Source: Crossiella sp. CA-258035
Lineage (GTDB): Bacteria > Actinomycetota > Actinomycetes > Mycobacteriales > Pseudonocardiaceae
Length of the DNA: 64,000 nt
Direction of reading: 5' to 3'
Assembly: GCF_030064675.1 (NCBI RefSeq)
Contig: NZ_CP116413.1
Location: forward strand, 4,062,001-4,126,000
This document shows positions 6,054 through 25,638 of the stretch, piece after piece. Numbering within the stretch: the stretch's first letter is position 1; each line of letters opens with the position of its first letter. A model generated the notes under the pieces. The model did not search any database. It was not told where the DNA came from and was given only the letters and a program-made list of their open reading frames with translations. Both the position numbers and the translations under genes were made by a program.

Positions 6054-7244
6054 TCACCACTTCACCGGCAGGCTCACCAGGCCGCCGGGCAGCAGGTTGT
6101 CCAGGAGTTCCAGCTCCTCCACCGGCACCGCCAGCTCCAGGTTCGGGAAGCGCTGGAACAACCGGCTGAACACCGCCTCCAGCTCCACCCGGGCCAGCGT
6201 GGCGCCGATGCACAGGTGCCGTCCGCTGCCGAAGGACAGGTGGGAGTTGGGTTCGCGGGTGACGTCGAAGGTGTCCGGGTCGGTGAAGAAGCGCGGGTCC
6301 CGGTTGGCGGCGATGCCGCTGATCAGCACCGCGTCACCGAAGTTGATGGTGACATCGCCCATCTTGATCTCGTCCCTGGCATAGCGGACGAAGTTGCCGC
6401 CGCCGGCGTCGGTGAAGCGCAGCATCTCCTCCACCGCGGACTCCACCAGCGAGGGGTCCTCCACCAGGCGCTTGCGCTGCTCGGGATAGGTGAGCATGTG
6501 CAGGGTGCCGAACTCCACCAGCACCACGGTGGTCATGTGCCCGGCGAAGAGCAGGCCGGTGGCCAGACCGACCGCGTAGTCCATGTTCAGCTTGCCCTCG
6601 TTGTAGGCGCGGGCGATGTCGGAGATCACGTCCTCGCCCGGGTTCGTGCGGCGCGCCTCGATGAGGGAACCGGTGTAGGCGCGCAGCTCGGTGAGCTGTT
6701 CCAGGGAGTGCTCGCCGTTGAACATGTCGGCCGCGCCCTCGGACCAGATGCGGAACTGGTCGCGGTCCTCGTAGGGCACGCCGAGCAGCTCGCAGATCAC
6801 CAGCACCGGCAACGGGAACGCGAGCTCCTGATGCAGGTCGGCCGGCGGCGTCTTCTTGGCCATCTCGTCGAGCAGGTCGTCGACCAGGCCGCCGATGCGC
6901 GGCCGCAGCATGCGCATCCGCTTGGCGGAGAAGGAACCGCCGAGCAGGGAGCGCATCAGGGTGTGGTCGTAGTCCTCGGTCTCGTAGGTGCCGACCGGAC
7001 CGCCCATCATGGCCGACTCGCTGACCTTCGCCGCGTTGGCCGGGTCCGGGTGCGAGCGGATCAGGCGGTGGTCGGTGAACAGCGACTTGGCCTCTTCGTA
7101 GCGGGTGACCAGCCAGGCCTCGTCGCCCATCATGGTGCGCACCTTGGTGATCGGGCGCTCGGCCTGGAGCTGCCGCAGCATCGGCGGGATGTCCAGGATG
7201 GTGGGGCGGTCGAAGGGGAGGGCGGGCATGTCCTGGGTGGTCAT
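6054..7244 (-). CDS. Cytochrome P450 (A), translationally coupled to radical SAM protein 1
   Basis: A soluble 396-aa class I P450. Oxygen-binding I-helix AGHMTT is at 234-239, E273-x-x-R276 forms the K-helix salt bridge, and the heme ligand is Cys345 in FGSGRHLCIG. It would hydroxylate, epoxidise or desaturate using an external ferredoxin/reductase, neither of which is encoded in the cluster. Its ATG overlaps the stop of radical SAM protein 1 by four bases, so the two are made from one message and may act on the same intermediate. It is divergent from P450 B and C in sequence. Confidence 0.95.
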   Translation of the reverse strand: MTTQDMPALPFDRPTILDIPPMLRQLQAERPITKVRTMMGDEAWLVTRYEEAKSLFTDHRLIRSHPDPANAAKVSESAMMGGPVGTYETEDYDHTLMRSLLGGSFSAKRMRMLRPRIGGLVDDLLDEMAKKTPPADLHQELAFPLPVLVICELLGVPYEDRDQFRIWSEGAADMFNGEHSLEQLTELRAYTGSLIEARRTNPGEDVISDIARAYNEGKLNMDYAVGLATGLLFAGHMTTVVLVEFGTLHMLTYPEQRKRLVEDPSLVESAVEEMLRFTDAGGGNFVRYARDEIKMGDVTINFGDAVLISGIAANRDPRFFTDPDTFDVTREPNSHLSFGSGRHLCIGATLARVELEAVFSRLFQRFPNLELAVPVEELELLDNLLPGGLVSLPVKW

Positions 7245-9148
7245 CGGGCGTCTCCCGTCAGTGCGGTGTCACAGACCTGGTACTCGGGCAGCATGTCCAG
7301 CATCTGCTCCAGCAAGTTGGCGCAGTACAGGCCGTTGGCGAGCGAGTCGTTCTCATCCGTGCAGACCTGCTTGTTCTTCCCGGTGAAGTCCAGGCGCACC
7401 CGGTGTGCCGAGGGATCGTCCAGCAGTTCGCGCTCGACCAGCTCGGCGACCAGGTGCGGCGGCAGGTCCACGGTCACGTGGTGCTCGCCCATCTCGAAGA
7501 TGTTCATCTCCTTCAACGGAACTCCCGGTTCCTGCACCGGTTCGATGTAGGGGTAGGGCCGGGCCACCATGTCCAGCTCGAACAGCGCGCGCACGGTCGG
7601 GTCCGACCACCACGGCTGCGCCGAGGCGAACTCGTGCATCAGCCGGTCCGCCTCCTGCCGGTGGCTGTGCTGGATCTGGTGGGCCACCATGCCGCCGTTG
7701 CTGTACTCGTAGTGGTCCAGGGTCTCCACCGAGCGCTTGATGTAGCGGGCGAGCTCGTACTCCTGGTGTTCCCGGTAGAAGGCCACCACCGCCCAGAACA
7801 GCTCGTCGAAGGACATGATGCCCTTGCGGTCCAGGTAGCTGGAGACGAAGAACAGCCCGCGCGAGTCGTAGACCGACAGCAGCGCGTACCAGAACCACAC
7901 GCCCTCGTCGTACTGCTCCCGGTTGACCCACTTGGTGCGCACCACCAGCTCGGCCTCGCCGACCGGGTTGGGCACCCGCTCGGTGTGCACGCCGAAGAGC
8001 TCGCGCTGCTCGTAGATCGGCGTGTTGTGCAGCAACAGCTGCGGGTACACGTTGATCATGTCGGCGCCGGTGCGGCACAGCTGCACGATTCCGTCCACAT
8101 AGGACCCCAGGGTCTCCCCGGGCAGCGGCCAGATCAGCTCGATGAAGGAGGGGATGTTCCTGGCCCGCAGGTCGCGCTGGAGCTCGGAGTAGGTCTCCCG
8201 CTTGATGTTCTTGCGCTCGATCAGGGTGAGCGCCTCGTCGCTGACGCTCTGCAGGGAGATCGGCTGGCGGGTGATCAGCCCACCGCGCAACAGGATGTCC
8301 ACGATCTTGGACACCCGCTCCGGGCTGTTCTTGGCCGACTGGATGGTCACCCAGTACGGGAACCCGTACTTCTCCTTGCACTCCACGATGTACTCGGTCA
8401 GCTCCACATCGCGTGCGGACAGGCCCCAGTTGGCATCGGCGATCATGACCGCGTAGATGTTGTTCTTGGCGATCCACTCGATGTCGGCCTTGACCCGGTC
8501 CATCTCGAAGCGGTGCACCTTGTCGTTGGTGGCCGCGCCCCAGTAGCAGAACCCGCAGCGGAACGGGCAGCCGCGGTTGGTCTCCAGCACCGCCACGTGG
8601 TAGGTCGAGTCGGTGAACAGGTTGGCCACGAACGGGCTCGGCACCTCGGTGAGCTCCTTGATCCGCGCGGCCGGCAGGGTGGTGGTCACCCGGCCGTCCC
8701 GGCGGAAGCTCAGCCCCGGCACCTTGCCCAGGTCCGGCGACTCGTTCGCCAGTTCACGCAGGTACTCCTGGAAGGTGATCTCGCCTTCGCCGTTGCACAC
8801 CGCCACGTTGTGCGCGCCCGGCGGGATGTAGTCCTCGCCGTGGTTCATCACCTGCGGGCCGCCCAGCAGGTACTGCGCGTTGGGCCGCAGGCGCACCAGG
8901 TCCTCCAGCACCTCGCGCACCAGCTTGCCGTTCCAGATGTAGCAGCTGAACGCGTAGATGTCGCAGTCCAGCTCGGCCAGCTCGGCCACCAGCGCCACCC
9001 GGCCGTCCGAGGTGTGCCGGGAAAGGATCTCGAACTCGTACTTCTGTGCGACCACCTCGTCCTGTCGGGCGTAACTCTGGAGGTATCCGGATACCAGCGG
9101 GAGGAAGCTGTGCCAGGAGTGGATCTCCACTAGCGCCACGGTTGTCAT
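7241..9148 (-). CDS. Cobalamin-type radical SAM enzyme 1
   Basis: A 635-aa protein with an N-terminal Rossmann-like domain (1-150; SCYIWNG, YLLGGPQVMNHGE, NGEGEITFQEYL) typical of B12-binding radical SAM proteins, then a radical SAM barrel with Cys194, Cys198 and Cys201 in NRGCPFRCGFCYWG to hold the 4Fe-4S cluster. A long C-terminal region (about 420-635) has no motif I can name. The ATG at 9148 is preferred because conserved sequence begins there. Relatives methylate unactivated sp3 carbons or P atoms, for example hopanoid methylases. Methylation or rearrangement of the terpenoid is inference. Divergent from the P450 B operon and paralogous to protein 2. Confidence 0.92.
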   Translation of the reverse strand: MTTVALVEIHSWHSFLPLVSGYLQSYARQDEVVAQKYEFEILSRHTSDGRVALVAELAELDCDIYAFSCYIWNGKLVREVLEDLVRLRPNAQYLLGGPQVMNHGEDYIPPGAHNVAVCNGEGEITFQEYLRELANESPDLGKVPGLSFRRDGRVTTTLPAARIKELTEVPSPFVANLFTDSTYHVAVLETNRGCPFRCGFCYWGAATNDKVHRFEMDRVKADIEWIAKNNIYAVMIADANWGLSARDVELTEYIVECKEKYGFPYWVTIQSAKNSPERVSKIVDILLRGGLITRQPISLQSVSDEALTLIERKNIKRETYSELQRDLRARNIPSFIELIWPLPGETLGSYVDGIVQLCRTGADMINVYPQLLLHNTPIYEQRELFGVHTERVPNPVGEAELVVRTKWVNREQYDEGVWFWYALLSVYDSRGLFFVSSYLDRKGIMSFDELFWAVVAFYREHQEYELARYIKRSVETLDHYEYSNGGMVAHQIQHSHRQEADRLMHEFASAQPWWSDPTVRALFELDMVARPYPYIEPVQEPGVPLKEMNIFEMGEHHVTVDLPPHLVAELVERELLDDPSAHRVRLDFTGKNKQVCTDENDSLANGLYCANLLEQMLDMLPEYQVCDTALTGDAR

Positions 9149-9226
9149 CTCGGTGTGCCTCCGTCCACTGGACTTGCAGCCCAAGGCGATGTCGGCCCGG
9201 AGCCTACGGACGCCCGCTTGGCGCCC

Positions 9227-9279
9227 GGCTGCACCAGAGCTGGACGCGGGCCCCGGTCCGCTCCAGTGCGGGTGCAGCC
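9227..9279. promoter_or_regulatory. Candidate SARP operator, inverted pair of 11-bp-spaced repeats
   Basis: In the 203-bp divergent promoter between radical SAM 1 and P450 B, CTGCACC (9229) is followed 11 bp later by CTGGACG (9240). The opposite strand carries CTGCACC followed 11 bp later by CTGGAGC, reading 9277 to 9256. The whole is an imperfect palindrome with nine-base identical outer ends (GGCTGCACC). Direct heptads at helical-turn spacing are how SARP regulators recognise DNA. Assignment to the SARP at 22.3 kb is inference. Confidence 0.5.
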
Positions 9280-9351
9280 GCATGACCAGCGCCGTTCTCT
9301 AGCGTCAGCACTCGAATCCGGATCCGGCGACGGCGGTGTGAGGAGACGTGC

Positions 9352-10542
9352 ATGAGCGCACCCGAGCGGGCCCCCGCTGTGTCCCTGCCCCTGGCCCAGC
9401 CCTCGATCACCGAGCCACCAGCGGAGTACGCCCGGCTGCAGGCGGAGTGCCCGGTGGCCAGGGTGGTCACCGAGAACGGCACGCACGCCTGGATGGTGAC
9501 CCGGTACGAGGACGTGCGCTTCGTGCTGGCCGACCCCAGGTTCAGCATCCGCTTCGCCGGCGCGGCCAGTGACAACGCCGAGGATGCTCCCGAGGAGTCG
9601 CTGTTCCAGGACCCGCCAGGGCACAGCCGGTTGCGCCGACTGGTCGGCCGGGCGTTCACCGCCCGCCGGATGGCCGACCTGCGGCCCGCGGTGCGGCGCA
9701 CCGCCGAACGGCTGGCCGCGGAGATGGCCGATGACTACCCGCCCGCTGAGCTGGTCAGTGACTTCGCCTTCCCGTTGTCCATCAACGTGATCAGCGAGCT
9801 GCTCGGCGTGCCCACTCCGGACCGGGCGGACTTCCGCGCCTGGTCCGAGGCGGTGATCAGCCTGACCGCGCACACCCCTGAGGAGATCGGCGCGGCCTGG
9901 AACAACCTCCAGGGTTATGTGGCCGAGCTGATCGAGGCCAAGCGCCGCGACCCCGGCAGCGACCTGATGAGCGCGCTGATCGCGGTGCGGGACAACGAGG
10001 ACGACAAGCTCAGCACCGGCGAGCTGCGCACCATGGCGGTCACCCTGCTGGTGGCCGGGCACGTCAGCACGGTCAACGCGATCACCATGGGCATGCTCAC
10101 CCTGCTCACCAACCGCGCCCAGTACGACCGCCTGGTGGCCGATCCCGGGCTGATCGAGGGCGCGGTGGAGGAGATCCTGCGCTGCCAGTTCGGCAAACGC
10201 GGCCTGATGCGCATCGCCAAGGACGACGTCCAGGTCGGCGAGGCGCTGATCCGCAAGGGCGACACCGTCTTCGCCGAGCTGGGCGCGGCCAACGTCGACG
10301 CCAGCCTGTTCCCCGAACCGGCCCGGTTCGACATCACCCGGCCGGAGAACCCGCACCTGGCGTTCGGCCACGGCATCCACCACTGCCTCGGCGCCGCGCT
10401 GGGGCGGATGGAACTGCACGTGACGCTGGAAGTGCTCAGCTCGGCCTTCCCGCTGATGCGCACCGTGCTGCCGGTGGAGCGGATCCCGCTGCGCACCGGC
10501 CTGCTCGACCAGAGCCCCGCCGCCCTGCTCGTGACCTGGTAA
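9352..10542 (+). CDS. Cytochrome P450 (B)
   Basis: A 396-aa soluble bacterial P450, first gene of the rightward five-gene operon 9352-15632. I-helix AGHVST is at 235-240 and heme Cys345 lies in FGHGIHHCLG. The ATG at 9352 follows GAGGAGAC. Strong similarity to P450 C in the N-terminal block (PxxTEPPxEYARL, SLFQDPPGH) and in the C-terminal LLDQ tail shows the two arose by tandem duplication. Probable role: regio- and stereospecific oxidation of the terpenoid scaffold. Confidence 0.95.
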   Translation: MSAPERAPAVSLPLAQPSITEPPAEYARLQAECPVARVVTENGTHAWMVTRYEDVRFVLADPRFSIRFAGAASDNAEDAPEESLFQDPPGHSRLRRLVGRAFTARRMADLRPAVRRTAERLAAEMADDYPPAELVSDFAFPLSINVISELLGVPTPDRADFRAWSEAVISLTAHTPEEIGAAWNNLQGYVAELIEAKRRDPGSDLMSALIAVRDNEDDKLSTGELRTMAVTLLVAGHVSTVNAITMGMLTLLTNRAQYDRLVADPGLIEGAVEEILRCQFGKRGLMRIAKDDVQVGEALIRKGDTVFAELGAANVDASLFPEPARFDITRPENPHLAFGHGIHHCLGAALGRMELHVTLEVLSSAFPLMRTVLPVERIPLRTGLLDQSPAALLVTW

Positions 10543-10556
10543 CGAAGGAGACGCCG

Positions 10557-11714
10557 ATGGGGGCACCGCCCTTCCCGTTCGCCCGCCCGTCCGTCACCGA
10601 ACCGCCGGTGGAGTACGCGCGGCTGCGCGCGCAGGAGCCGGTCAGCCGGGTCACCACCAACTCCGGGGAACCGGCCTGGCTGGTCACCCGCTACGAGGAC
10701 GTCCGGTTCGTGCTCTCCGACCTGCGCTTCGGCGTGCGCGCCCCGGGCGCGGCCGCGGCCACCGAGGACTCGCTGTTCCAGGACCCGCCGGGGCACACCC
10801 GGCTGCGCCGCCTGGTGTCCAAGGCCTTCACCGTGCGCGGGGTGGAAGCCTTGCGCCCCAAGGTGCAGGCCCTGGCCAAGCAGCTGGCCGGTGACCTGCG
10901 CGCGGCCGGTCCGCCCGCCGACCTGGTGGAGATCTTCGCCTTCCCCATGTCCATCGGGGTGATCACCGAGCTGCTCGGCGTGCCCGTGGTCGACCAGGCC
11001 GACTTCCGGCGCTGGTCGGAGGCGATCCTCTCGCTGGACGCCTTCAGCCAGGAGGAGGTGATGGCCGCGGGCAAGAGCCTGGACGAGTACTGCGCCGGGC
11101 TGATCGCGGACAAGCAGCGCAACCCGGGGCCTGACCTGCTCAGCGACCTGATCGCGGTGCGTGAGCAGGACAACGACCGGCTCAACGACCGGGAGCTGCT
11201 CACCATGGCGGAGAGCATCCTGATCGCCGGGTACGTCACCGCGGGCAACACCATCGGCCTGGGCGCGCTCACCCTGCTCACCCACCCCGAGGACTACCAG
11301 GCCCTGGTGGACGACCCGGAGCTGGTGCCGGGCGCGATCGAGGAGATCCTGCGCTACGCCTCGGAGATCGGCGGCCTGGTCCGGATCGCGCAGGACGACG
11401 TGCGCATCGGCGAGGTGCTGATCAAGGCCGGGGACATGGTGATCGCGCCACCGGCCTGCGCCAACCGGGACGAGCGCCGCTTCCCCAACCCCGGCCGGTT
11501 CGACCGCACCCGCCCCGGCAACCTGCACCTGGCCTTCGGGCACGGCGTGCACCACTGCCTCGGCGCCGCGGTGGGGCGGCTGGAGCTCCAGGTGGCCTTC
11601 ACCGAGCTGGCCACCAGCTTTCCCGGGCTGCGCCTGGCCGTGCCGGTGGAGGAGCTGCCGCAGCGGGCCGGACTGCTCGACCAGGGACCCAGCGCGCTGC
11701 CGGTGGCCTGGTGA
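10557..11714 (+). CDS. Cytochrome P450 (C)
   Basis: A 385-aa P450 and tandem paralogue of P450 B, 14 bp downstream of it. I-helix AGYVTA is at 224-229 and heme Cys334 in FGHGVHHCLG. The acidic residue usually preceding the I-helix Thr is Val here (and in B), so oxygen activation may rely on water or substrate groups, as in several macrolide and terpene P450s. The ATG at 10557 follows AAGGAGACGCCG. Likely oxidises the cluster product after or in parallel with P450 B. Confidence 0.95.
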   Translation: MGAPPFPFARPSVTEPPVEYARLRAQEPVSRVTTNSGEPAWLVTRYEDVRFVLSDLRFGVRAPGAAAATEDSLFQDPPGHTRLRRLVSKAFTVRGVEALRPKVQALAKQLAGDLRAAGPPADLVEIFAFPMSIGVITELLGVPVVDQADFRRWSEAILSLDAFSQEEVMAAGKSLDEYCAGLIADKQRNPGPDLLSDLIAVREQDNDRLNDRELLTMAESILIAGYVTAGNTIGLGALTLLTHPEDYQALVDDPELVPGAIEEILRYASEIGGLVRIAQDDVRIGEVLIKAGDMVIAPPACANRDERRFPNPGRFDRTRPGNLHLAFGHGVHHCLGAAVGRLELQVAFTELATSFPGLRLAVPVEELPQRAGLLDQGPSALPVAW

Positions 11715-11756: not shown

Positions 11757-13706
11757 ATGACGCGGAGACAGGTGTGGTTGATCCAGCAGGGCATCTGGGA
11801 GATGGCCCTGGAGTCCATGCCGCTGGCTGCCGGCTATCTCAAGGCGACCGCGCTGCAGGACGAGAAGCTGGCCGCGAACTTCGACATCAAGATCATCAAC
11901 TTTGACGGTGGCAAGACGCTGTTCGGCATGGCCAGCGAGCTCTTCGCCGGCGAGGCCCCGGACATCATCGCCTTCTCGGTGCTGGGCTGGAACTTCCGCT
12001 CCTTCGCCGCGCTGGCCGAGACCTACAAGCAGCTCAAGCCGGACGGCTGGGTGGTCTTCGGCGGCAACCACGTGGCCAACCAGGCCAAACGGGTCTTCGG
12101 CATGTTCCCGGACGTGGACATCGTGGTCAACGGCGAGGGCGAGTTCACCTTCTGCGACCTGCTGCACGCGCACCTGGACGGCAAGGCGCGCAACGAGCTC
12201 GGCGGCATCCTGGGCATCTCCTTCCAGAGCGGCCACGGTGGGTACGTCACCACCGAGGAACGGCCGCGGATCGAGGACCTGGACGCCATCGCCTCCCCGG
12301 TGCTCACCGGCACCCTGGAGCTCACCGACGACGAGGGCAACTTCCGCTACGACGTGGCGCTGATGGAGACCAACCGCGGCTGCCCCTACCGCTGCTCCTT
12401 CTGCTACTGGGGCGGCGCGGTCGGCCAGCGGGTGCGGGCCTTCTCCAGGGAACGGCTGCGCCAGGAGGTGGAGCTCTTCGCCAAGCACAAGGTGCACACC
12501 ATCGTCATGTGCGACGCCAACTTCGGCATGCTGCCCATCGACCTGGAGTTCGTCGAGGACGTCATCGAGATCCGGCAGCGGCTCGGCTTCCCCAAGAGCA
12601 TCGAGACCTCCTGGGCCAAGAACAAGTCCAAGCTGTTCTACCAGATCGTCAGCGCGATGAAGGAAGCCGGACTGCACAGCTCGTTCACCCTGGCCCTGCA
12701 GACCCTCAACCCGGACGCGCTGGAGGGCATGCAGCGGCGCAACATGAAGGTCAACGACTGGGAGAGCCTGGCCGAATGGCTCGGCAAGGAAGGCATGGCC
12801 TGCTACGCCGAGCTGATCTGGGGCGCGCCGGGGGAGACCGTGGAGTCCTTCATGGAGGGCTACGACCGGCTGGCCAACCACGTCTCCAGGGTCGCGGTCT
12901 ACCCGATGCTGATCCTGCCCAACACCGCGTATGCGGAGAAGCGGGCCGAACACGGGCTGATCACGGTGCGCGGCAACAACGACGACTTCATGTACCTGAT
13001 CGCGCACAACACGATGACCCCGCAGGACAACCGGTACATGCACCGGTTCATCTTCTTCTCCAGGCTGGTCGCGGAGAACCCGGTGTTCCGGTTCCTCTGG
13101 GGACCGCTGCGCGAGCTCGGCGGGCTCACCCAGTCCGAGACGATCCGCTCGCTGATCGACTGGTTCGAGCGCAGCACCGACCCGGCGGCCGAGCCGTTCC
13201 AGCACGGGCTGAACAGCTCCTTCACCGACTCCGACGTGCTGGGCCCGGTGGTGGAGTACGTCTACGGCACGGTGGAGGCCAAGGAGGAGCTGCGCCGCTG
13301 GTGGCGTGAGTCGATGCTGCCCAGGGTGCCGAGTGAGCACGTGGCCCTGCTGGACAACGCCTTCGAGTACGACCTGCTCACCCTGCCCGCCTATTCCAGC
13401 CCCGGCCGGGAGCCCTCACCGTTGTACGCCAACGAGACCCTGCCGCTGGTGGAGGTCGAGGGCGACATGTTCCACGTGCGGCACAACGTGACCATCGCCT
13501 GCGACGTGCCCGCGATGTGCCTGGCGCTGCGGCGCGGGGAGTCCTACGCGCACACCGTGGGGGAGCAGGAGACCTCGCTGTACTACAAGGCCGGCGCCCG
13601 CAACTTCGTCACCTCCACCAACCACGAGGAGATCGTCTACTACATGGGCAGGCTGGCGCGAGAGATGTTCAGTGACAACCGGAGAGGCGTGGTGTCCCAT
13701 GACTGA
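11757..13706 (+). CDS. Cobalamin-type radical SAM enzyme 2
   Basis: A 649-aa paralogue of radical SAM protein 1. N-terminal B12-type Rossmann region (1-150; VVFGGNHVANQAKR, NGEGEFTFCDLL), cluster cysteines Cys209, Cys213 and Cys216 in NRGCPYRCSFCYWGG, SAM-barrel segments ELIWGAPGETVESF, and a C-terminal region shared with protein 1. The ATG at 11757 follows GTGAGGACGAGCCG. It ends eight bases inside the methyltransferase gene, so translation is coupled. Predicted to methylate an unreactive carbon or perform a related radical step using SAM and methylcobalamin; the substrate is inferred to be a cluster intermediate. Confidence 0.92.
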   Translation: MTRRQVWLIQQGIWEMALESMPLAAGYLKATALQDEKLAANFDIKIINFDGGKTLFGMASELFAGEAPDIIAFSVLGWNFRSFAALAETYKQLKPDGWVVFGGNHVANQAKRVFGMFPDVDIVVNGEGEFTFCDLLHAHLDGKARNELGGILGISFQSGHGGYVTTEERPRIEDLDAIASPVLTGTLELTDDEGNFRYDVALMETNRGCPYRCSFCYWGGAVGQRVRAFSRERLRQEVELFAKHKVHTIVMCDANFGMLPIDLEFVEDVIEIRQRLGFPKSIETSWAKNKSKLFYQIVSAMKEAGLHSSFTLALQTLNPDALEGMQRRNMKVNDWESLAEWLGKEGMACYAELIWGAPGETVESFMEGYDRLANHVSRVAVYPMLILPNTAYAEKRAEHGLITVRGNNDDFMYLIAHNTMTPQDNRYMHRFIFFSRLVAENPVFRFLWGPLRELGGLTQSETIRSLIDWFERSTDPAAEPFQHGLNSSFTDSDVLGPVVEYVYGTVEAKEELRRWWRESMLPRVPSEHVALLDNAFEYDLLTLPAYSSPGREPSPLYANETLPLVEVEGDMFHVRHNVTIACDVPAMCLALRRGESYAHTVGEQETSLYYKAGARNFVTSTNHEEIVYYMGRLAREMFSDNRRGVVSHD

Positions 13707-14403
13707 CCGCTATTCCTACATGGCCCAGTACCACGAGCTCTTCGCCTTGCCGTACAAGGAGCCCACCCAGCGCGCGGTGGCCAAGGCGGTGGCCGACTGC
13801 GCCAACGGCGTGCTGGAGATGGGCGCGGGCACCGGCCTGGTCACCGAGACCATCGCCGATGCCTGCCCCGGCGAGGTCTTCGCGGTGGAACCGGCCGCGC
13901 CGATGCGCGCGGTGCTGATGTCCCGGCTGGCCCGCAGGCCCGACCTGCAACGGCGGGTCACCGTGCTGCCGCAGGACGCGGTGACGGTGAAGCTGCCGGT
14001 GAAGGTGGACGCGGTGGTGCTGATCAGCATGCTGCTCTGCTTCTCCCCGGAACGCCGCGCCCAGCTGTGGCGGGTCTGCCGCGAGTCGCTCAACCCCGGC
14101 GGCCTGCTGGTGCAGGACCGGCCCGAACCCGCCACCGCCGACCCGATCGCGCCGGCCGCGGGCAGCCTCCAGGTGGGCCGGGCCCGCTACGACATCGAGT
14201 ACGCGGGCGTGCCCGCCGGTGACGGCGTGCTGCGGCTGAGCTGGTCCTACCGGATCACCGTGTGCGATGAGGAGGGCATCGAGGAGCGGGAGGAGATCGA
14301 CGCCTACCCGATCAGCGAGGAGGAGCTCAACGCCGAGCTGGACGAGGCCGGGTTCGAGCGTGCCGACGCCCCCGACGGGCTGCTCGGCTGGCGCCTGCGA
14401 TGA
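13699..14403 (+). CDS. SAM-dependent methyltransferase
   Basis: A 234-aa class I methyltransferase with motif I LEMGAGTGLV (about residue 37), an acidic post-I strand AVEPAAPM, and a post-motif III LNPGGLLVQDRPEP. The ATG at 13699 overlaps the radical SAM 2 stop by eight bases and its own stop overlaps P450 D by four. Probably an O-methyltransferase acting on a hydroxyl or carboxyl of the cluster product, since C-methylation is covered by the radical enzymes; that division of labour is inference. Confidence 0.9.
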   Translation: MTDRYSYMAQYHELFALPYKEPTQRAVAKAVADCANGVLEMGAGTGLVTETIADACPGEVFAVEPAAPMRAVLMSRLARRPDLQRRVTVLPQDAVTVKLPVKVDAVVLISMLLCFSPERRAQLWRVCRESLNPGGLLVQDRPEPATADPIAPAAGSLQVGRARYDIEYAGVPAGDGVLRLSWSYRITVCDEEGIEEREEIDAYPISEEELNAELDEAGFERADAPDGLLGWRLR

Positions 14404-16728: not shown

Positions 16729-16751
16729 GACCGTTCCCCGAGGGAGGCATT

Positions 16752-17732: not shown

Positions 17733-17745
17733 CAACCCCCACCCC

Positions 17746-17887: not shown

Positions 17888-17898
17888 GGGGCATGGGG

Positions 17899-18903
17899 TT
17901 AGCGGTCTCGGTCGATGGCCAGTTCGGCGAAGAAGGCGAGGCGGTCCCGGCTCGGCGAGGGTGGCAGCTTCACCAGCGCCGAGCCGGAGTTCTCCGCGTA
18001 GGTCCAGGCCATCTTGGCCGCGGACTCCAGCGCGCCGGTCCGGTCGAGCACCTCCAGGATCTGCTCGTGGCGGTGCCCCAGGTTCTCCTCGCCGGTGAGT
18101 GCCTGGCGCAGCAACCGGCGCTCCGGGTGGCCGCCGGCGCGGTAGGCCAGCAGGACCGGCAGGGTGAGCCTGCCGTTGCGGCTGTCACTGGTGTTCTCCT
18201 TGCCCATGGTGTCCGCCTCGCCGGTGTAGCCCAGGATGTCGTCCTGGATCTGGAAGGCGGTGCCCAGCGCCAGCGCGTACCGGGACAGCGCCTCCACCTG
18301 CTCCGGGGTGCCACCGGCCAGGATCGCGCCGCTCTCGCAGGCGCCCTGGAAGAACGCCGCGGTCTTCAGGCTGATCATGGTCAGGTAGCCGTCCAGGTCG
18401 AAGCGCAGACCGCGGCACAGCTCCTCCTCCATGCTCTGGCCCCGGCACAGGTCCAGGCCGCAGCGGGCCACCGCCTCCAGTGCGGCGGCCACCCTGCTGT
18501 CCGGCACACCGGTCCACCGGCACTCGGCCAGCCCGGCGAACAGGTCGAAGATCAGCGCGTCCCCGGCCACGATCGCGTTGCCCACGCCGAAACGGCTGTG
18601 CACCGAACGCCGGCCGCGGCGCAGCTCGTCGCCGTCGATGATGTCGTCGTGGATCAGGCTGGCCACGTGGCCGCACTCCGCGCCCACCGCGGCCGGCAGC
18701 ACCATCTCCGCCGAGCCGCCCACCGCGCAGGCGGACTCCAGCAGCAGGATGGGCCGGAACAGCTTGCCGCTGGGCACCAGCGCGTAGTGGCACATGGTGC
18801 TCAGCAGGCTGGAGGTGCGGGACCAGCGGGTGCGCAGCTTGCTCTCGGCGAGGTCGGTGAGCGCGGACAGGGCGAGTTCGGGGCGGGGGTCAGCGGACTG
18901 CAT
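17899..18903 (-). CDS. Trans-polyprenyl diphosphate synthase
   Basis: A 334-aa isoprenyl diphosphate synthase. The first Asp-rich motif is D86-D87-I-I-D90, the second is D221-D222-I-L-G225 with the last Asp replaced by Gly, and G-K-E-N-T-S-D follows. The residues four and five positions before the first motif are Ser82 and Ala81. Small residues there leave the product channel open and usually mean chains of C20 or longer. The ATG at 18903 follows GAGGAGAACAAC. Last gene of the leftward operon cyclase, P450 E, synthase. It should supply the linear precursor; chain length needs assay. Confidence 0.92.
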   Translation of the reverse strand: MQSADPRPELALSALTDLAESKLRTRWSRTSSLLSTMCHYALVPSGKLFRPILLLESACAVGGSAEMVLPAAVGAECGHVASLIHDDIIDGDELRRGRRSVHSRFGVGNAIVAGDALIFDLFAGLAECRWTGVPDSRVAAALEAVARCGLDLCRGQSMEEELCRGLRFDLDGYLTMISLKTAAFFQGACESGAILAGGTPEQVEALSRYALALGTAFQIQDDILGYTGEADTMGKENTSDSRNGRLTLPVLLAYRAGGHPERRLLRQALTGEENLGHRHEQILEVLDRTGALESAAKMAWTYAENSGSALVKLPPSPSRDRLAFFAELAIDRDR

Positions 18904-18913
18904 GTTGTTCTCC

Positions 18914-20233
18914 TCAGCTGGTTCGGAAAGCCTTGCGGCGCTGGAGAACCACCTCCGCCCCACGGGCGGGCGTGAGCACCGGGCCCATGGCTCGTTGGCG
19001 CTCCGGTTCCGGGGCCGCGGCCCGGAGCCGGGTGTGTGCCAGCACGGTGCTGATCACCGTGCGCATGGTGGTCATGGCGAAGGCCGCGCCGAGACACCGG
19101 TGCGGGCCGCCGCCGAAGGGCAGGAACAGTTCCGGTCCCGGCGCCTCGCCGAGGAAGCGCTCCGGCCGGAACTCCTCCGGTTCGGGATAGCGCCGGGGGC
19201 AGGAGTGCAGCAGCCCGAGGGAGAGCGCGAGCATGATCCCGGCGGGCAGCCGGTAGCCGTCGATGGTGGCTGGTGCGGCCAGGATGCGGGCGATGTCGCC
19301 CACCACCGGCCGCACCCGCAGCGTCTCGTTGATCACCGCGTCCAGGTACTCGTGCTGCCCGTCGGCCAGCTCGCCCTCCAGGCGGGCCAGCGCTTCCGGG
19401 TGCCGCACCAGCCGCTCGAAGGCCCAGGACAGCGTGGTCGCGGTGGTCTCGTGGCCGACCGCGAGCACGGTGACCAGGTTGTCCCGCAGGTCCTCGTCGG
19501 TGGCCGGCTGCCCGTCGGCGTGCCGCATCCGCAGCAGCAGCGAGAGCACGTCGGAGCGCTCACCGTCCACTTCGGAGCGTCGGCGGGCGATCTCGCTGTA
19601 GAGGATCTCGTCCACCGCGGCCTTCACCCTGGCGAACCGGCCGCCTGGGCTGTAGCGACCCCAGTCCTTGCGCAGCAACGGGAACAGCACCACCGCCGGG
19701 TTCATGTGCAGCAGCTTGGGCACCAGCGCGCGCAGCCCGGCCAGCCGCTTGAGGTCGGTGATGCCGAAGACCACCCGCATCATGATCTCCAGCGTCACGT
19801 GCTGCATCCTGGGCAGCAGCGACACCGGAGTGCCGGCCGGCCAGCGGCGCACCGCATCGGCGGTGACCTCGGCGATGGTGTCCTGGTACCGCTGCACGCT
19901 CGGCCCGCGGAAGGGCGGCAGCAGCACCTGGCGGCTGCGCACGTGCTCCGGCCCGTCCAGCAGCAGCACCGACCGCGGCCCGACCACGAAGTCCATCACC
20001 CGGTTCGCGTCCCCGGCCAGCAGCGTCGAGGACTCCGCGGTGACCGCGCGCCGGATCACCGCCGGATCGGCCGCGCACACCACGGTGCCCACCGGGAACA
20101 CCTTGATGGTGAACAGGTTCCCGTACTTGCGCCGGCAGTCCTTGGCGAACTCCAGCGGCTGGATCGCGGAGAGCACGGTCTGGGCCAGCACCGGCATCCG
20201 CGGCCCCGGTGGCAGCGAGATCGCCGGGTTCAC
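18914..20233 (-). CDS. Cytochrome P450 (E), coupled to the terpene cyclase
   Basis: A 439-aa P450 of a different type from A-D, closer to eukaryotic-like bacterial families. It has a proline-rich hinge (LPPGPRMP, residues 7-14) without a membrane anchor, I-helix VGHETT, the ERFL segment before the heme loop, and Cys380 in FGGGPHRCLG. The GTG start at 20233 overlaps the cyclase stop by four bases; upstream in-frame sequence belongs to the cyclase gene. Ten bases separate it from the synthase. Likely the first oxidase acting on the cyclised skeleton. Confidence 0.92.
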   Translation of the reverse strand: MNPAISLPPGPRMPVLAQTVLSAIQPLEFAKDCRRKYGNLFTIKVFPVGTVVCAADPAVIRRAVTAESSTLLAGDANRVMDFVVGPRSVLLLDGPEHVRSRQVLLPPFRGPSVQRYQDTIAEVTADAVRRWPAGTPVSLLPRMQHVTLEIMMRVVFGITDLKRLAGLRALVPKLLHMNPAVVLFPLLRKDWGRYSPGGRFARVKAAVDEILYSEIARRRSEVDGERSDVLSLLLRMRHADGQPATDEDLRDNLVTVLAVGHETTATTLSWAFERLVRHPEALARLEGELADGQHEYLDAVINETLRVRPVVGDIARILAAPATIDGYRLPAGIMLALSLGLLHSCPRRYPEPEEFRPERFLGEAPGPELFLPFGGGPHRCLGAAFAMTTMRTVISTVLAHTRLRAAAPEPERQRAMGPVLTPARGAEVVLQRRKAFRTS

Positions 20234-21957
20234 GGGCGCTGGGACTGGCCGGCCAGGCGCAGCCAGCACGCCAGCGCCCGCAGCGTGTAGGTGTGCGCGA
20301 TCAGGTCGTCGCTGTAGCAGAGGTCCTCGAAGTACAGGCCCACCGGCGCCTCCGGCCAGCTGCCCGCCTCGTTCTGCCGGGCCGCCAGCCAGTCCACCGC
20401 GCGCACCAGCCGCGGGTCCCACGGCGAGGTGCCGGCCCGCAGCAGCGAGTACACCGCCCAGGCGGTCTCCTCCACGGTCTCACCCGGCGCGCTGGTCTGC
20501 ACGCTGACCGGCCACGCGCCCGAGGGAGCCTGGTTGTCCCACAACCACTTCCGGGCCCGCACCGCCACCGGGTGGTTCGGCGTGCCCAGCTCGGCGTAGG
20601 TCTCCAGCACCTTGGCGGTGCCGTGCGTGCCGTCCCGGAACCACAGCGAGGGCAGCGATCCGTCCGGCAGCTGGTCGCCGTGGTACCAGCGCAGCGCGCG
20701 GTCGATGGCCGCCCTGGCCCCGCGCGGCTCACCGTGCTGGTGCAGGGCCATCACCACGTGCGCGGTGACCCCGGTGCACGGCCGGTCGTTGAGGATGAAG
20801 GAGTTGCGCACCCACTCCGACCAGGAACCGTTGCGGTTCTGCCGCACCCGCAGCCAGCGCAGCCCGTCGGCCACCTTGGGGTGGTCCCTGGACAGGCCGA
20901 GCAGCCCGAGTGTGGACAGCGCCACCGCGGTGTCCTCGGACTCCGGCCAGCCCGAGGGCACGTTCCAGGACCAGGCTCCGGCCGGGATGTTCAACGGCTT
21001 GAACGGTTCGGTCCACTGGGTGGAGAGCAGCCAGTCGCGGGTGCGCCGCAGCCGGGAGTCGGTGGCCACGTCGATGTGCTCGGCCAGCGCGTGCACCGCG
21101 TAGCAGGTCACCGCGATCTCCAGGTCGCGGTCGATCGCCCAGGACCCGTCCGGCCGCTGGGTGTCCAGCAGGTACTCCAGCGAGGCCTGCTGGATGTCCG
21201 GGCCGAGCTCGGCGGTGTGCAGCCCGAGGTACATCAGCGCGGAGATCATCGGGCACTCCTCCACGCCCCCGTTGGGCCCCATCACCGAACGCAGCCAGGC
21301 CAGCGCCCTCGGCCGGGCCAGCCAGCGCAGGAAACGCCGGGGCGCGCTGGCCGGGATCACCTTGGCCTGCATCAGTCCCAGGGCGAGCACCGCGGGCATG
21401 CCGATGGAGACCTTGTTGCGCAGCTTGGGCGGCAGCAACATGATCTCGATCGGCAGCGTGGGCTGGTCCTTGATGTCGCGCAGCCCCACCAGCGACCAGG
21501 CCACCGGCGCCGCCGCGGGCCAGGTTTTCGGCCCTGGGCCACGCATTCCGGGGATCACGTCGAAGGAACCGTTGGCCTCGATGAACTTGTGGCCCCTGGC
21601 GATCCGCTCGGCGGAGCCCTCGCGGTCCAGCCGGTGGCAGGCGGCGATGGCGAAGGCGGTCATGCCGGGGCTGCTCGGCGCGAACTTGTCGGCCATGCTC
21701 CAGCCGCCGTCCTCGCGCTGGTGCGCGCGCAGCCAGTCCATGCCCAGCTCGATGCGGTCCCGGTAGCGCTGCTCATCCGCGGTGGCCAGGGCCAGCAGGC
21801 CCAGTGCGGTGGAAACCGTCGACGAGGAAAGCCGATCGGTCCACGCGCCGTCCGGCCGTTGCCGCGCAAACAGGTGATCCACCGCCTTGCGCACCACCTC
21901 AGCGGTCCGCCCGGTCAGCTCAGGGGAATTCACAACTGGTTCGTTCACAAAAACCAT
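20230..21957 (-). CDS. Squalene-hopene-cyclase-like class II terpene cyclase with E-S-E-D motif
   Basis: A 575-aa alpha/alpha-barrel protein with several QW-type repeats (QRPDGAW, EDGGWS, QRPDGSW, QNRNGSW, APSGAW, NEAGSW). Squalene-hopene cyclases are about 630 aa and carry DXDDTA, whose middle Asp protonates the terminal alkene. Here the same place reads E339-S340-E341-D342-T343-A344, so the catalytic acid would be Glu341 and its partner is also Glu. Glu can still protonate an epoxide, as Asp does in oxidosqualene cyclases. This suits the FAD monooxygenase in the cluster. It heads a leftward operon. The start is the ATG at 21957; a GTG three codons later is possible. Confidence 0.88.
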   Translation of the reverse strand: MVFVNEPVVNSPELTGRTAEVVRKAVDHLFARQRPDGAWTDRLSSSTVSTALGLLALATADEQRYRDRIELGMDWLRAHQREDGGWSMADKFAPSSPGMTAFAIAACHRLDREGSAERIARGHKFIEANGSFDVIPGMRGPGPKTWPAAAPVAWSLVGLRDIKDQPTLPIEIMLLPPKLRNKVSIGMPAVLALGLMQAKVIPASAPRRFLRWLARPRALAWLRSVMGPNGGVEECPMISALMYLGLHTAELGPDIQQASLEYLLDTQRPDGSWAIDRDLEIAVTCYAVHALAEHIDVATDSRLRRTRDWLLSTQWTEPFKPLNIPAGAWSWNVPSGWPESEDTAVALSTLGLLGLSRDHPKVADGLRWLRVRQNRNGSWSEWVRNSFILNDRPCTGVTAHVVMALHQHGEPRGARAAIDRALRWYHGDQLPDGSLPSLWFRDGTHGTAKVLETYAELGTPNHPVAVRARKWLWDNQAPSGAWPVSVQTSAPGETVEETAWAVYSLLRAGTSPWDPRLVRAVDWLAARQNEAGSWPEAPVGLYFEDLCYSDDLIAHTYTLRALACWLRLAGQSQRP

Positions 21958-22326: not shown

Positions 22327-24252
22327 GTGACTTTAGAGCATGGTTCGTTAACTGGTGTTGCCGGTGAGTTGCCGCGGCAACGCCGAGCCGCGTCGGGACT
22401 CGGGCAACGGGAACCGGTCCGGCCGGGAGGGGGTGGTCCGCCGCGCGGACGAAAAGGACTGCGCCTGAACATCCTCGGGCCGCTGACCGTCTACCACTCG
22501 CACCGCCCGGTGGACATCGGCCCGCTGAAGCAACGATGTCTGTTGGGCCTGCTGGCCCTGCAACCTGACCGGGTGGTCACCCGGGACGAGATCATCGACG
22601 TGCTCTGGGGCGTCAACCCGCCGCGCACCTGCGCGGGCCTGGTGCACTCCTATGTCTCCCGGCTGCGCCGCGGCCTGCAGCCCGGTCGCGAGAGCCGGGT
22701 CAAGGGACAGATCATCACCGCCGTGCGCGACGGCTACCGGATGCCGGTGGAGGCCGGACAGCTCGACCTGCTGGAGTTCGACGAGCTGGTGCACCACGCC
22801 GAACGCGCCGCCGAGGACTCCGGCGCCGCGCTGGAGCTGTTCGACTCCGCGCTGCACCGCTGGCGCGGCCCGGTGCTCAGCGACCTGGTCGGCAGGTTGC
22901 GCCAGCACCCGGCGGCGATCGCGCTGTCCCAGCGCAGGCTCAACGCGGTGCTCACCTACGCCGACCTGTCCATCGCGCTGGGCCGCCCGGAACCCGCGCT
23001 GGAGCGGCTGCGCCCGCTGGCGCACGAGGAGTCGCTGCACGAGGGCCTGCACGCCAGGCTGATGCTGGCGCTGGCCGGCTGCGGACAGCAGGCCGAGGCG
23101 CTGCGGCTGTTCACCGAGCTGCGCCGCCGCTTGGCCGAGGACCTCGGTGTGACCCCCGGCGCGGAGATCCAGGAGGCACACCTGCGGGTGCTGCGCGGCG
23201 AACTGCCGATGGCCGCGGTGGTCGTGCCGCGCAGCGCGCCACGGGAGACCAGCGCCCAGGTCCCCACCCAGCTGCCCGGCGACACCCCCGGCCTGGCCGG
23301 ACGGGACCGTTATCTGGCCCAGCTGGACGCGATCCTCACCGGGGCCGAGGAAGCGGGCACGGTGATGACCACCGCCGTGGTGGGCGCGGCGGGGGTGGGC
23401 AAGACGACCCTGGCCGTGCACTGGGCGCACCGGGTCAGCAGCAGGTTCCCCGACGGTCAGCTCTTCGTGAACCTGCACGGCGCGGTGCAGCCGAACCGGG
23501 TGCTGGCCAGGTTCCTGCGCGCGCTCGGCGTGCCAGCCGACGAGGTCCCGGTGGAACTGGACGAGGCCGCCGCGATGTACCGGACCGTGCTGGCCAACCG
23601 GAAAGTGCTGGTATTGCTGGACAACGCGGTGCACGCCGCGCAGATCCGGCCGCTCCTGCCGGGCAGCCCGGGTTGTTTCGTGGTGATCACCAGCAGGCAC
23701 CGGCTGGGCAGCCTGGCCGCCAGCGACGGCGCGCACCTGCTCGACCTGGACGTGCTCAGCCCGGTGGACTCGCTGCGCGCGCTGGCCCGGATGCTCGGCC
23801 CGGAGCGGGTGCACGCCGAACCCGCGGCCGCCGCCGAGCTGACCAGGCTGTGCGCGCACCTGCCACTGGCGCTCAGCGCGGCCGCGGCCAACCTGGTCAA
23901 CCACCCGCACCACCGGATCGCCGACTACGTGGTGGCCCTGCACAACGGAAACCGCTTGGCCGCACTGGAGGTCGACAGCGACGACCAGCTCTCCGTGCGC
24001 GCCGCCATCGACCTGTCCTACGCCAGTCTGGACCTGGCCACGCAGCGCCTGTTCCGCCGCCTCAGCGTCATCCGCGGCGGCTTCTCCGGCGAGACCGTGG
24101 CCGCCCTGATCGACGGCACCTCGCACGACGCCGACCACATGCTCGACCGCCTGGCCGCCCAGCACCTCATCCGCGCCTCCGCGGGCTTCTACACCCTGGA
24201 CGACCTGATCCGCCTGTACGCCACCGAACGGGCTCAGGCCGAAGATCCCTGA
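22327..24252 (+). CDS. SARP-family activator with NB-ARC domain (AfsR/DnrI type)
   Basis: A 641-aa pathway regulator. A winged-helix DNA-binding domain occupies about 46-145 (LNILGPLTV to GYRMPV), the BTAD helical domain about 150-295 (LGVTPGAEIQEAH end), and an NB-ARC ATPase about 320-580 with Walker A GAAGVGKTT at 353-361 and KVLVLLDNA as Walker B. AfsR-like proteins of this shape lose or shorten the TPR tail, as here. The GTG at 22327 is preceded by a G-rich site. Codons 3 and 8 are TTA, the rare leucine codon read by BldA tRNA, so synthesis may be developmentally timed. It very likely activates this cluster. Confidence 0.92.
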   Translation: MTLEHGSLTGVAGELPRQRRAASGLGQREPVRPGGGGPPRGRKGLRLNILGPLTVYHSHRPVDIGPLKQRCLLGLLALQPDRVVTRDEIIDVLWGVNPPRTCAGLVHSYVSRLRRGLQPGRESRVKGQIITAVRDGYRMPVEAGQLDLLEFDELVHHAERAAEDSGAALELFDSALHRWRGPVLSDLVGRLRQHPAAIALSQRRLNAVLTYADLSIALGRPEPALERLRPLAHEESLHEGLHARLMLALAGCGQQAEALRLFTELRRRLAEDLGVTPGAEIQEAHLRVLRGELPMAAVVVPRSAPRETSAQVPTQLPGDTPGLAGRDRYLAQLDAILTGAEEAGTVMTTAVVGAAGVGKTTLAVHWAHRVSSRFPDGQLFVNLHGAVQPNRVLARFLRALGVPADEVPVELDEAAAMYRTVLANRKVLVLLDNAVHAAQIRPLLPGSPGCFVVITSRHRLGSLAASDGAHLLDLDVLSPVDSLRALARMLGPERVHAEPAAAAELTRLCAHLPLALSAAAANLVNHPHHRIADYVVALHNGNRLAALEVDSDDQLSVRAAIDLSYASLDLATQRLFRRLSVIRGGFSGETVAALIDGTSHDADHMLDRLAAQHLIRASAGFYTLDDLIRLYATERAQAEDP

Positions 24253-24265
24253 TGCCGCAAGCGAT

Positions 24266-24297: not shown

Positions 24298-25638
24298 CTA
24301 GCGCACCAGCTCCAGGACCAGGTCCGCGGCCGTGCCCACCCCGCCGGTCCGGCGCTGCAACTGCGCGAACAGCTCCGCGCGCTCCCGGAAGGACCGCTCT
24401 TCCAGTAGCCGCAACAGTTTCCGGTGCACATCGTCCGGGTCGAGGGTCTCCGGCCGGTCCACCGTGAGACCGGCGCCGCTGTCCACCGCGCGGACCGCGT
24501 GGTCGTAGCAGTCCAGCCACAGCGGCCGGGTCAGCAGCGGTGTGCCGAAGTACAGGCCCTCGTGGAAGCTGTTGCTGCCGGCGTGGTTGAAGAACACCCG
24601 GACGCTGGGGTGGGCCAGCACGTCGTACTGCGAGGGCAGCCAGTCCTCGATCCGCAGGTTGCCGGGCAGGTTCGCGGGCAGGAAACGCTGCTGGTCCGCG
24701 GGCAGCTTCCAGAGCACCTGGTGCCTGCCGTCGAGCCTGCGCGCCACCTCGACCATCGCGCCGACCTCCGCCTCGGTCAGCCGGGTGATGGTGCCGAAGG
24801 CGACGTAGACCACCGAGTCGTGCTCGTCCAGCCAGCGCATCACCGGATCCGTCCCGTCGGTCTCCGGCAGCGGCGGCACCAGGGTGCCCAGCGGCTTGAG
24901 CTTGTCCGGCACCGGGAACGGATAGTCCAGCTCCAGCAAGGAGAAGCACAGGATCAGCGCGGCGGCGTCCACCGCGGTCTGCGGCTGGTAGCAGGACCGG
25001 TCCACGCCGAACTCGCGCATCACCTTGTCGTACTTCACCGCTTGGCCCAGCAGCGAGGGCCGCAGGAACAGGGTCCGCATCCGCCACCGGAACCACCAGT
25101 GCGCCAGCTTCTGCGCCCTGGTCATCACCCGCGGCAGCCCGGACTGCGGCACCGGGAAACCCTTGGGCAGGCTGCCCTGGCAGATGTCGCTGGGCAGGAA
25201 CGGCGCGGTGAGCACGAACGGGATCTTGCGGGTCATCGCCACCAGCAGGGCGTGGTGGCACAGGCTGTTGATCACCATCAGCGCGGGCCGGATCTGGGTC
25301 ACCGCTTCATCGAGGCGGCGGTAGCGGTCGCGGAAGTACTCCGGGTCCATCGACTGCGCGATCCGGGCCCGGTAGGCGGCGAACCGGGACCGGCCGGTGA
25401 CCGCGCGGTAGGTCCGGTCATCCCACATGGTCGCGGCGAAGGCGGGGTTGACCGCACCGAGTGAGACGAACTGGACAGACGAACGCGCGGCCAGCTTCTC
25501 GACCTCGACCCTGCGGTTCTCATCCGAGGCGAACCACAGGTCGGGCACGCCCCGCCTGGCCAGCTCGCCCGCCACCGCGAGGCTGGAGTTGATCAGCCCC
25601 GTCGACTGGGTGCAGCAGAACAGGATCGGTCTGGTCAT
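24298..25638 (-). CDS. GT1-family glycosyltransferase
   Basis: A 446-aa GT-B glycosyltransferase of the UGT/MGT type. The N-terminal acceptor domain begins MTRPILFCCTQSTG; the C-terminal donor domain has VVYVAFGTITRL (about 275) and the donor-binding loop FNHAGSNSFHEGLYFGTPLL (about 355-375). The Asp/Glu-Gln end of the plant PSPG box is D-C-Y-D-H here, so the sugar donor cannot be predicted. The ATG at 25638 follows AAGGGGACGCG. It would attach a sugar to a hydroxyl of the cluster product. No deoxysugar genes are nearby, so a common nucleotide sugar is likely. Confidence 0.9.
   Translation of the reverse strand: MTRPILFCCTQSTGLINSSLAVAGELARRGVPDLWFASDENRRVEVEKLAARSSVQFVSLGAVNPAFAATMWDDRTYRAVTGRSRFAAYRARIAQSMDPEYFRDRYRRLDEAVTQIRPALMVINSLCHHALLVAMTRKIPFVLTAPFLPSDICQGSLPKGFPVPQSGLPRVMTRAQKLAHWWFRWRMRTLFLRPSLLGQAVKYDKVMREFGVDRSCYQPQTAVDAAALILCFSLLELDYPFPVPDKLKPLGTLVPPLPETDGTDPVMRWLDEHDSVVYVAFGTITRLTEAEVGAMVEVARRLDGRHQVLWKLPADQQRFLPANLPGNLRIEDWLPSQYDVLAHPSVRVFFNHAGSNSFHEGLYFGTPLLTRPLWLDCYDHAVRAVDSGAGLTVDRPETLDPDDVHRKLLRLLEERSFRERAELFAQLQRRTGGVGTAADLVLELVR

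Follow-up and report, generated by a model that had tools for sequence, protein, structure and literature searches.

A SARP-linked terpenoid-type gene cluster of Crossiella with two cobalamin radical SAM enzymes and a squalene-hopene-like cyclase of altered acid site

What might be made by a gene cluster in which a squalene-hopene cyclase (SHC)-like protein, a polyprenyl diphosphate synthase (IDS) and a UbiA prenyltransferase stand beside two cobalamin-dependent radical SAM (rSAM) enzymes, and on which carbons would the latter act? The question is raised by bases 6054–25638 of a 64,000-nucleotide stretch of DNA from Crossiella sp. CA-258035 (the window; positions 4062001–4126000 of a one-contig genome of 9.17 Mb). 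Genes were called from open frames and coding bias and assigned to families by Pfam and NCBIfam with curated cut-offs, which gave five P450s, two cobalamin rSAM enzymes, an S-adenosylmethionine (SAM)-dependent methyltransferase (MT), an FAD monooxygenase (FMO), the UbiA protein, the IDS, the cyclase, a SARP-family activator and a glycosyltransferase (GT); all the gene classes named in the original prediction, made from the letters alone, are therefore present, and its single SARP was right. The cluster is real, conserved and, as far as we have searched, uncharacterized, and stands out for the combination of a CysS-like enzyme with an altered cyclase acid site. That it is a terpenoid cluster we regard as almost certain, and that UbiA makes its product a meroterpenoid as probable; for a SARP-controlled meroterpenoid-type biosynthetic cluster working through the pathway proposed below, we judge the chances to be about even.

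Conserved gene set and cyclase acid site

The cyclase has both SQHop_cyclase domains (N-terminal 79.8 and C-terminal 127 bits in Pfam), so that its description as squalene-hopene-like holds at the level of the domains but not at the catalytic acid: the DXDD motif was not found in the protein, where PESEDT is aligned with the PDVDDT of SHC structure 1gsz. Within the family genomes the cyclase belongs to a clade of 15 SHC loci in 13 of 297 genomes (54–100% identity, window included), and PESEDT or PETEDT (hereafter PE[ST]EDT) occupies the acid position in all 15. Past this clade, identity falls to 42–43% and then to 38%, the latter group having GWPx[TV]LE[ST] where DXDD is expected. When a profile of 17 cyclase sequences was compared with solved structures, SHC scored 204 bits, lanosterol synthase 104, ent-copalyl diphosphate (CPP) synthase 55 and MstE 44. 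As a separate observation, a set of SHC-like proteins from Pseudonocardiaceae at 34–38% identity (G000:C1:5209935-5211551 and L024–L038) carries GWPx[TV]LE[ST] in the loci that were fetched.

The core, from the SARP gene to P450a, is kept in four of the five sampled Crossiella genomes, being syntenic at 81–100% identity in three besides that of the window (G086, G108 and G055); the fifth (G016) gave no rSAM1 or rSAM2 match at the thresholds used, and its sole SHC relative, at 38% identity, lies outside the clade. The GT gene is present in the window's species (its own genome and G086) and was not seen in the 40-kb stretches of G108 and G055, where other genes flank the SARP–P450a block, and we therefore place neither GT nor the neighbouring tannase gene (25800–27554) in the core. 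Gene content and conservation thus support a heavily oxidized terpenoid or meroterpenoid, as had been predicted, while its glycosylation is possible only.

The genes for rSAM2, UbiA, FMO, IDS and P450s occur together in 13 of the 15 clade loci (window included; stretches of 37–40 kb). Leaving the window aside, rSAM2 is found in 12 of 14 cyclase stretches, each of the 12 also carrying UbiA, FMO and one or more conventional methyltransferases, and the genes for SHC, P450e, UbiA, FMO, IDS and rSAM2 are common to clusters in Kutzneria, Kibdelosporangium, Amycolatopsis and Actinokineospora. Intervening genes were annotated with Pfam for chosen relatives (including seven from G159, three from G093a, nine from Kibdelosporangium persicum contig 48 and one from G108), and the others by BLAST to those. 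A search based on UbiA gave 27 named loci, nine with rSAM2, and all nine have a PE[ST]EDT cyclase, FMO, P450e and IDS; these nine are loci of the SHC set found again and not an independent sample. An SHC relative lies in the flanks of 18 of the 27, with PE[ST]EDT in 11 and other acid-site motifs in seven (PDTDDT twice, PEADDT, PNTDDT, PETDDT, PNSGNT and PNTGNT), and PE[ST]EDT is therefore a clade marker inside a larger group that combines UbiA, a prenyl synthase and an SHC-like protein. Of the 27 loci, 14 have DXS-like genes (family by BLAST, with Pfam on one member).

UbiA itself matches PF01040 with 113.7 bits, has both Asp-rich motifs intact and reaches no NCBIfam equivalog cut-off; its nearest solved structure is digeranylgeranylglyceryl phosphate (DGGGP) synthase. 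At least seven wider loci (L081, L083, L085, L087, L088, L089 and L091) have UbiA frames of 820–930 aa, which in the two examined (L081 and L089) continue into an isopropylmalate/homocitrate-synthase-like domain. Near L089 there are also ketosynthase-III-like and AMP-binding genes. NCBIfam scores do not decide the chain length made by the IDS. MT was considered as a prenyl-diphosphate C-methyltransferase, a role that it may have although no such enzyme is named among its matches to solved structures.

Two radical SAM enzymes of different subfamilies

The two rSAM enzymes had been taken for paralogues; both indeed have B12-binding and radical SAM domains but they share only 34% identity and belong to different subfamilies, CysS-like and KedN5 type, with CysS and TokK as the nearest solved relatives. 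Against the KedN5 subfamily model NF033712 (cut-off 700) rSAM2 scores 995.4 bits and rSAM1 305.8, whereas rSAM1 matches CysS over its full length (498.9 bits, 39% identity over 618 aa) with the CxxxCxxC motif present. Because this homology begins near residue 48, rSAM1 probably starts at base 9142 or close to it. Among ten CysS residues compared (taken from PMC12846815), Trp75, which lies below the cobalt in CysS, is the sole one unchanged in rSAM1.

Relatives of rSAM1 are scarce, with 18 loci in 15 of 297 family genomes at E≤1e-80 and, at E≤1e-60, a single genome of 396 from the phylum, which is the window's own. Seven of the 18 lie in, or apparently abut, a PE[ST]EDT cluster: four in Crossiella, one in Kutzneria (L109), where rSAM1 is a few genes from the cyclase cluster on the same chromosome, one in Actinokineospora fastidiosa (L113) and one in K. 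persicum (L116). The last two are at contig ends, and we infer that they are linked to cyclase clusters. In K. persicum, two separate parts of one G290 gene (residues 267–373 and 1–102) are split between the end of contig 49 and the start of contig 48, and rSAM1 on contig 49 therefore probably adjoins the cyclase cluster of contig 48; a junction with the rSAM2 cluster on contig 9 was considered and overturned, since the contig ends point to contig 48. That contig (G065a; L047, L070) carries the cyclase, P450e and IDS with ketosynthases, an acyl carrier protein, a ketoreductase and FabA-like genes, UbiA and FMO lying further along, and contigs 48 and 49 (L047, L070 and L116) are likely to form a polyketide–terpenoid hybrid cluster that probably includes rSAM1 across the contig break; the G290 cluster is its close relative. 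The other 11 rSAM1 loci fall in 10 stretches, nine with an AMP-binding-like ORF (by Pfam in L089 and L112 only), and hence look like non-ribosomal peptide synthetase (NRPS) loci.

The neighbourhood of rSAM1 is the same in L109 and L113, with the order rSAM1, P450c, O-methyltransferase and P450a (rSAM1 being on the opposite strand in L113). The O-methyltransferase of L113 has Methyltransf_2 and dimerization domains, and the L109 copy is 66% identical to it. An Amycolatopsis cluster (G156) has a homologue of this O-methyltransferase (69%) and P450a but lacks an rSAM1 match at E≤1e-80, which would be expected if its end point were a methoxy group. In a tree made for rSAM1 with 19 sequences, the three terpenoid copies from outside Crossiella group together (100/100).

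Relatives of rSAM2 are more numerous (41 loci in 32 of 297 family genomes at E≤1e-120), and surroundings were inspected for 21 of them: the 13 at ≥67% identity and 8 of the 28 below. Of the 13, 12 lie in clusters with a PE[ST]EDT cyclase; the remaining one (L142 of G254) carries an O-methyltransferase, a DegT-type aminotransferase, an EryCIII-type GT and an HpaB hydroxylase, and is therefore another kind of cluster. A cyclase cluster also surrounds a copy at 59% identity (G093 contig 53). Of five more loci fetched at 59–61%, three are without a core gene, one has a P450 together with two O-methyltransferase-like genes of distant kinship, and the fifth is L143, discussed below. In the window, MT likely starts with the ATG at 13699, so that its frame and that of rSAM2 share 8 bases at the rSAM2 stop, and as read from the sequence the two genes are likely to be translationally coupled.

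Two further loci of the window's own genome touch on this subfamily. L040 (G000:C1:4473000-4492900) has a KedN5-like rSAM with four tandem related genes that are 33–36% similar to the EryCIII-type GT of L142, and is possibly an aromatic or enediyne-like cluster; L039 (G000:C1:4343000-4362900) has three B12-binding open frames within 8 kb, one of them KedN5-like (48–50%).

Proposed pathway and its alternatives

The observations comprise gene content, homology, linkage, the motif swap in the cyclase and the rSAM1/P450/O-methyltransferase/P450a neighbourhood; from these we infer all of the pathway chemistry, which goes beyond them. We propose that IDS would make an all-trans prenyl diphosphate and that UbiA would join the prenyl chain to a small acceptor from primary metabolism (no acceptor-making gene was identified in the conserved core). 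The chain or head group could then be oxidized by the flavin enzyme or P450e, after which the soluble SHC-like cyclase would fold the chain, relying on the PE[ST]EDT carboxylates where DXDD is usual; a weaker acid at this position would suit an epoxide or another activated alkene. The scaffold would next be hydroxylated by P450s, a hydroxyl group would be O-methylated, and rSAM1 may add one or more methyl groups to the methoxy carbon (giving, for example, ethoxy or isopropoxy). The enzyme rSAM2, whose gene is coupled to that of MT, could carry out a further radical C-methylation, either of the head group or of a different ether, and in the window's species GT may finally add a sugar. The role of rSAM1 as an alkoxy homologator, which is drawn by analogy, we hold tentatively and at somewhat less than even confidence. 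More doubtful still is the wider proposal of a meroterpenoid family in actinomycetes whose terpenoid part would receive branched alkoxy groups (ethoxy, isopropoxy, tert-butoxy) through hydroxylation by P450s, O-methylation and repeated methylation by a cobalamin rSAM, and whose SHC-type cyclase would have a re-tuned Glu-x-Glu-Asp acid site in place of DXDD.

Several findings weigh against this pathway. The substrate-contact positions of CysS are altered in rSAM1 (F17W, W188V, W271T, S273Q, H371Y, F485Y, D607A and H617E), and its substrate therefore differs from that of CysS and need not be a methoxy group. In the rSAM1 tree, the terpenoid copies from outside Crossiella are joined by K. persicum copies that come from an NRPS-like locus (91/89) while Crossiella is on its own branch, so that the terpenoid label needs two changes and recruitment may have been independent; moreover, the Crossiella MT is not of the Methyltransf_2 type. 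The flavin enzyme, predicted to be epoxidase-like, is an FAD monooxygenase but has no squalene-epoxidase match (PF08491 was not among its Pfam matches at E≤0.001) and is closer to aromatic hydroxylases (HpxO, 6-hydroxynicotinate 3-monooxygenase) than to squalene epoxidase; squalene-epoxidase-like FMOs with PF08491 are present in the wider relatives L078 and L087. Nor do the parts of the cluster always travel together. A second locus in G055 (L143/L148, 8858500–8896300) combines rSAM2 (60%), UbiA, IDS, P450s, two methyltransferases, a GT-like gene and SARPs, with no SHC among its called genes (a 221-aa ORF of L143, considered as a membrane cyclase, has no hydrophobic segments and was judged not to be a gene). 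Conversely, two clusters, G065a and G290, keep the PE[ST]EDT cyclase without rSAM2, and in K. persicum rSAM1 is apparently joined to one such cluster; the steps are thus separable, and since the two enzymes occur apart in some clusters they are probably separate, optional modifications.

The best-surviving alternative, to which we would give a little less than an even chance, is that the substrate of rSAM2 is the UbiA acceptor, an aromatic or some other head group, either still free or already prenylated, and that the SHC step is independent of it. It would account for rSAM2 standing with UbiA and IDS in L143 and for its absence from the PE[ST]EDT cluster of G290, where 40 kb of sequence showed no UbiA; in addition, the rSAM2 paralogue of L040 (57%), in the same genome, lies with an AMP ligase, a polyketide-cyclase-like protein and an aromatic-ring hydroxylase. 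It sits less well with the want of a recognizable acceptor-making gene and with K. persicum contig 48, which has UbiA and FMO without rSAM2.

It is unlikely, in our estimate, that one or both rSAM enzymes methylate sp3 ring or backbone carbons of the cyclized terpene in the manner of hopanoid methylases, the analogy with HpnP and HpnR on which the original prediction had drawn. The class does methylate both sp2 and sp3 carbons, according to the parts of PMC12846815 available to us, and the substrate pocket of rSAM1 is unlike that of CysS, so that another carbon is possible. Neither enzyme, however, reaches HpnR (TIGR04367, cut-off 650 bits; rSAM1 scores 25.0 and rSAM2 35.7); their nearest solved relatives are the two named above; and a P450 and an O-methyltransferase adjoin rSAM1 in two relatives. 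We therefore keep carbon methylation in the broad sense as a likely feature of the product but not the ring carbon as its site, since an ether methyl or a head-group carbon may be the target: the rSAM enzymes more likely lengthen an ether or modify a head group than methylate a ring as in hopanoids. As to HpnP, no model of it is among the NCBIfam matches of either protein at E≤0.001, whether the library holds one being unchecked.

A purely terpenoid product, for which UbiA would be a terpene cyclase of the UbiA type, as known from platencin-type pathways, and the SHC-like protein a class II cyclase, seems improbable to us. Some UbiA proteins are cyclases and not prenyltransferases, bacterial UbiA-type diterpene cyclases among them (as the available text of PMC10301674 describes), a point that also counts against the proposed pathway, and no acceptor-making gene is recognized in the core. 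Yet UbiA here keeps both prenyltransferase Asp-rich motifs and has DGGGP synthase as its best solved match, its fusion to an isopropylmalate/homocitrate-synthase-like domain in two wider relatives fits the supply of an acceptor, and the cyclase profile favours SHC over ent-CPP synthase. We thus prefer the UbiA-made meroterpenoid. An ordinary hopanoid or other membrane-lipid locus, which the presence of an SHC-like protein and a prenyl synthase could suggest, is barely credible in view of the score against the hopene-cyclase model TIGR01507 (102.0 bits, cut-off 431.1), the missing DXDD, control by a SARP, five P450s and a patchy distribution (13 of 297 family genomes).

Layout of the locus and comparison with known systems

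Frames of P450a and rSAM1 overlap by 4 bases, and the true start of P450e is probably near base 20230, because most of its homologues are called at about 440–500 aa. A minus-strand ORF at 16725–17894 was rejected as a gene, being without a Pfam or NCBIfam match and having UbiA on the opposite strand. The unit GTTGGCCGTTNTCGTACR of the inverted-repeat element has 86 exact matches in the genome, 43 per strand, against none for a reversed control pattern; folded as RNA the element gives −136 kcal/mol (z −13.2). It looks like a member of a genome-wide hairpin family and is perhaps a two-way terminator.

Table 1. Features of the cluster, with window coordinates, strand and the marks on which each assignment is based
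Feature	Coordinates	Strand	Assignment
P450a	6054..7244	-	Pentalenolactone-synthase-like CYP, 420.5 bits, under cut-off 700; heme motif FGSGRHLCIG
rSAM1	7241..9283	-	B12-binding + radical SAM, CysS-like; motif CPFRCGFC
P450b	9352..10542	+	Pfam/NCBIfam, motif
P450c	10557..11714	+	Pfam/NCBIfam, motif
rSAM2	11757..13706	+	B12-binding + radical SAM, KedN5 subfamily; motif CPYRCSFC
SAM methyltransferase (MT)	13699..14403	+	Pfam/NCBIfam; generic class
P450d	14400..15632	+	Pfam/NCBIfam, motif
FMO	15553..16728	-	FAD_binding_3; HpxO / 6-hydroxynicotinate 3-monooxygenase type
UbiA prenyltransferase	16752..17732	+	PF01040; motifs GDYFDRELD, CDRDSD
Inverted-repeat element	17733..17902	.	Separates the convergent UbiA and IDS genes; repeat family spread over the genome, not cluster-specific
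Polyprenyl diphosphate synthase (IDS)	17899..18963	-	polyprenyl_synt; DDIID present
P450e	18914..20422 (open frame)	-	Pfam
SHC-like cyclase	20230..21957	-	SQHop_cyclase N+C; 575 aa; PESEDT replaces PDVDDT
SARP-family activator	22327..24252	+	BTAD + NB-ARC
UDP-sugar-type glycosyltransferase (GT)	24298..25638	-	UDPGT

Among the wider relatives, three loci (L071, L076 and L084) come from a record titled Rhodococcus rhodnii NRRL B-16535, in which L076 is laid out like L077 of Kibdelosporangium aridum and L084 like L083. The record is probably mislabelled, its genome (G093, 12.4 Mb) falling in the window's family and in the genus of K. aridum (g27).

The gene set is of use in three respects. It is a defined one with which to ask whether ether homologation by cobalamin rSAM enzymes, known on a carrier-bound aminobenzoate, works on terpenoids; the natural presence or absence of rSAM1 (Kutzneria versus Amycolatopsis coloradensis) offers a ready comparison; and the constancy of PE[ST]EDT across the clade opens the acid requirement of SHC-type cyclases to test.

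In the open literature searched, which covers only part of the field, we found no described pathway with this gene combination, in line with the original prediction, nor any description of radical methylation of methyl ethers on terpenes; no product is assigned there to the cyclase clade, most subscription papers being outside the scope of the search. A Chem. Sci. 2024/2025 paper cited in PMC13307353 possibly deals with a similar bacterial cyclase and may have anticipated part of what is found here for the cyclase.

Longestin is a polycyclic product whose pathway uses an SHC-like cyclase and UbiA. Longestin/KS-505a of Streptomyces argenteolus is described, in what we could consult of PMC10301674 and PMC9401056, as a bacterial meroterpenoid or tetraterpene glycoside in which a dedicated methyltransferase gives methylated isoprenoid units; its extra methyl groups come from a SAM-dependent isopentenyl diphosphate methyltransferase (PMC9401056), whereas the window has two cobalamin rSAM enzymes. 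Zigralone, as far as the portions of PMC13307353 at hand describe it, is closer in gene content, being a bacterial UbiA meroterpenoid whose cluster has a polyprenyl synthase, a UbiA-like prenyltransferase, two methyltransferases and, like the window, five P450s, with tryptophan from primary metabolism as the acceptor; it differs in using a Pyr4-like membrane cyclase, and the gene list in that text names no SHC-like cyclase or rSAM.

With the KedN5 family (NF033712) the link is rSAM2, which scores above the family cut-off. The context of KedN5 is the naphthoate of kedarcidin, an enediyne and not a terpenoid. For rSAM1 the comparison is with cystobactamid, in which, from the sections of PMC12846815 that we could draw on, the oxygenase CysC, the O-methyltransferase CysF and then CysS act in order to turn a methoxy group into ethoxy and isopropoxy on a pantetheine-bound aminobenzoate. 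Unlike that system, rSAM1 does not keep the CysS contact residues, and there is no NRPS or carrier protein among the cluster genes of the window; like it, rSAM1 is a full-length CysS homologue that is followed in two relatives by a P450 and an O-methyltransferase, so that the likeness to CysC/CysF/CysS, which we draw as an analogy, is one of neighbourhood and homology.

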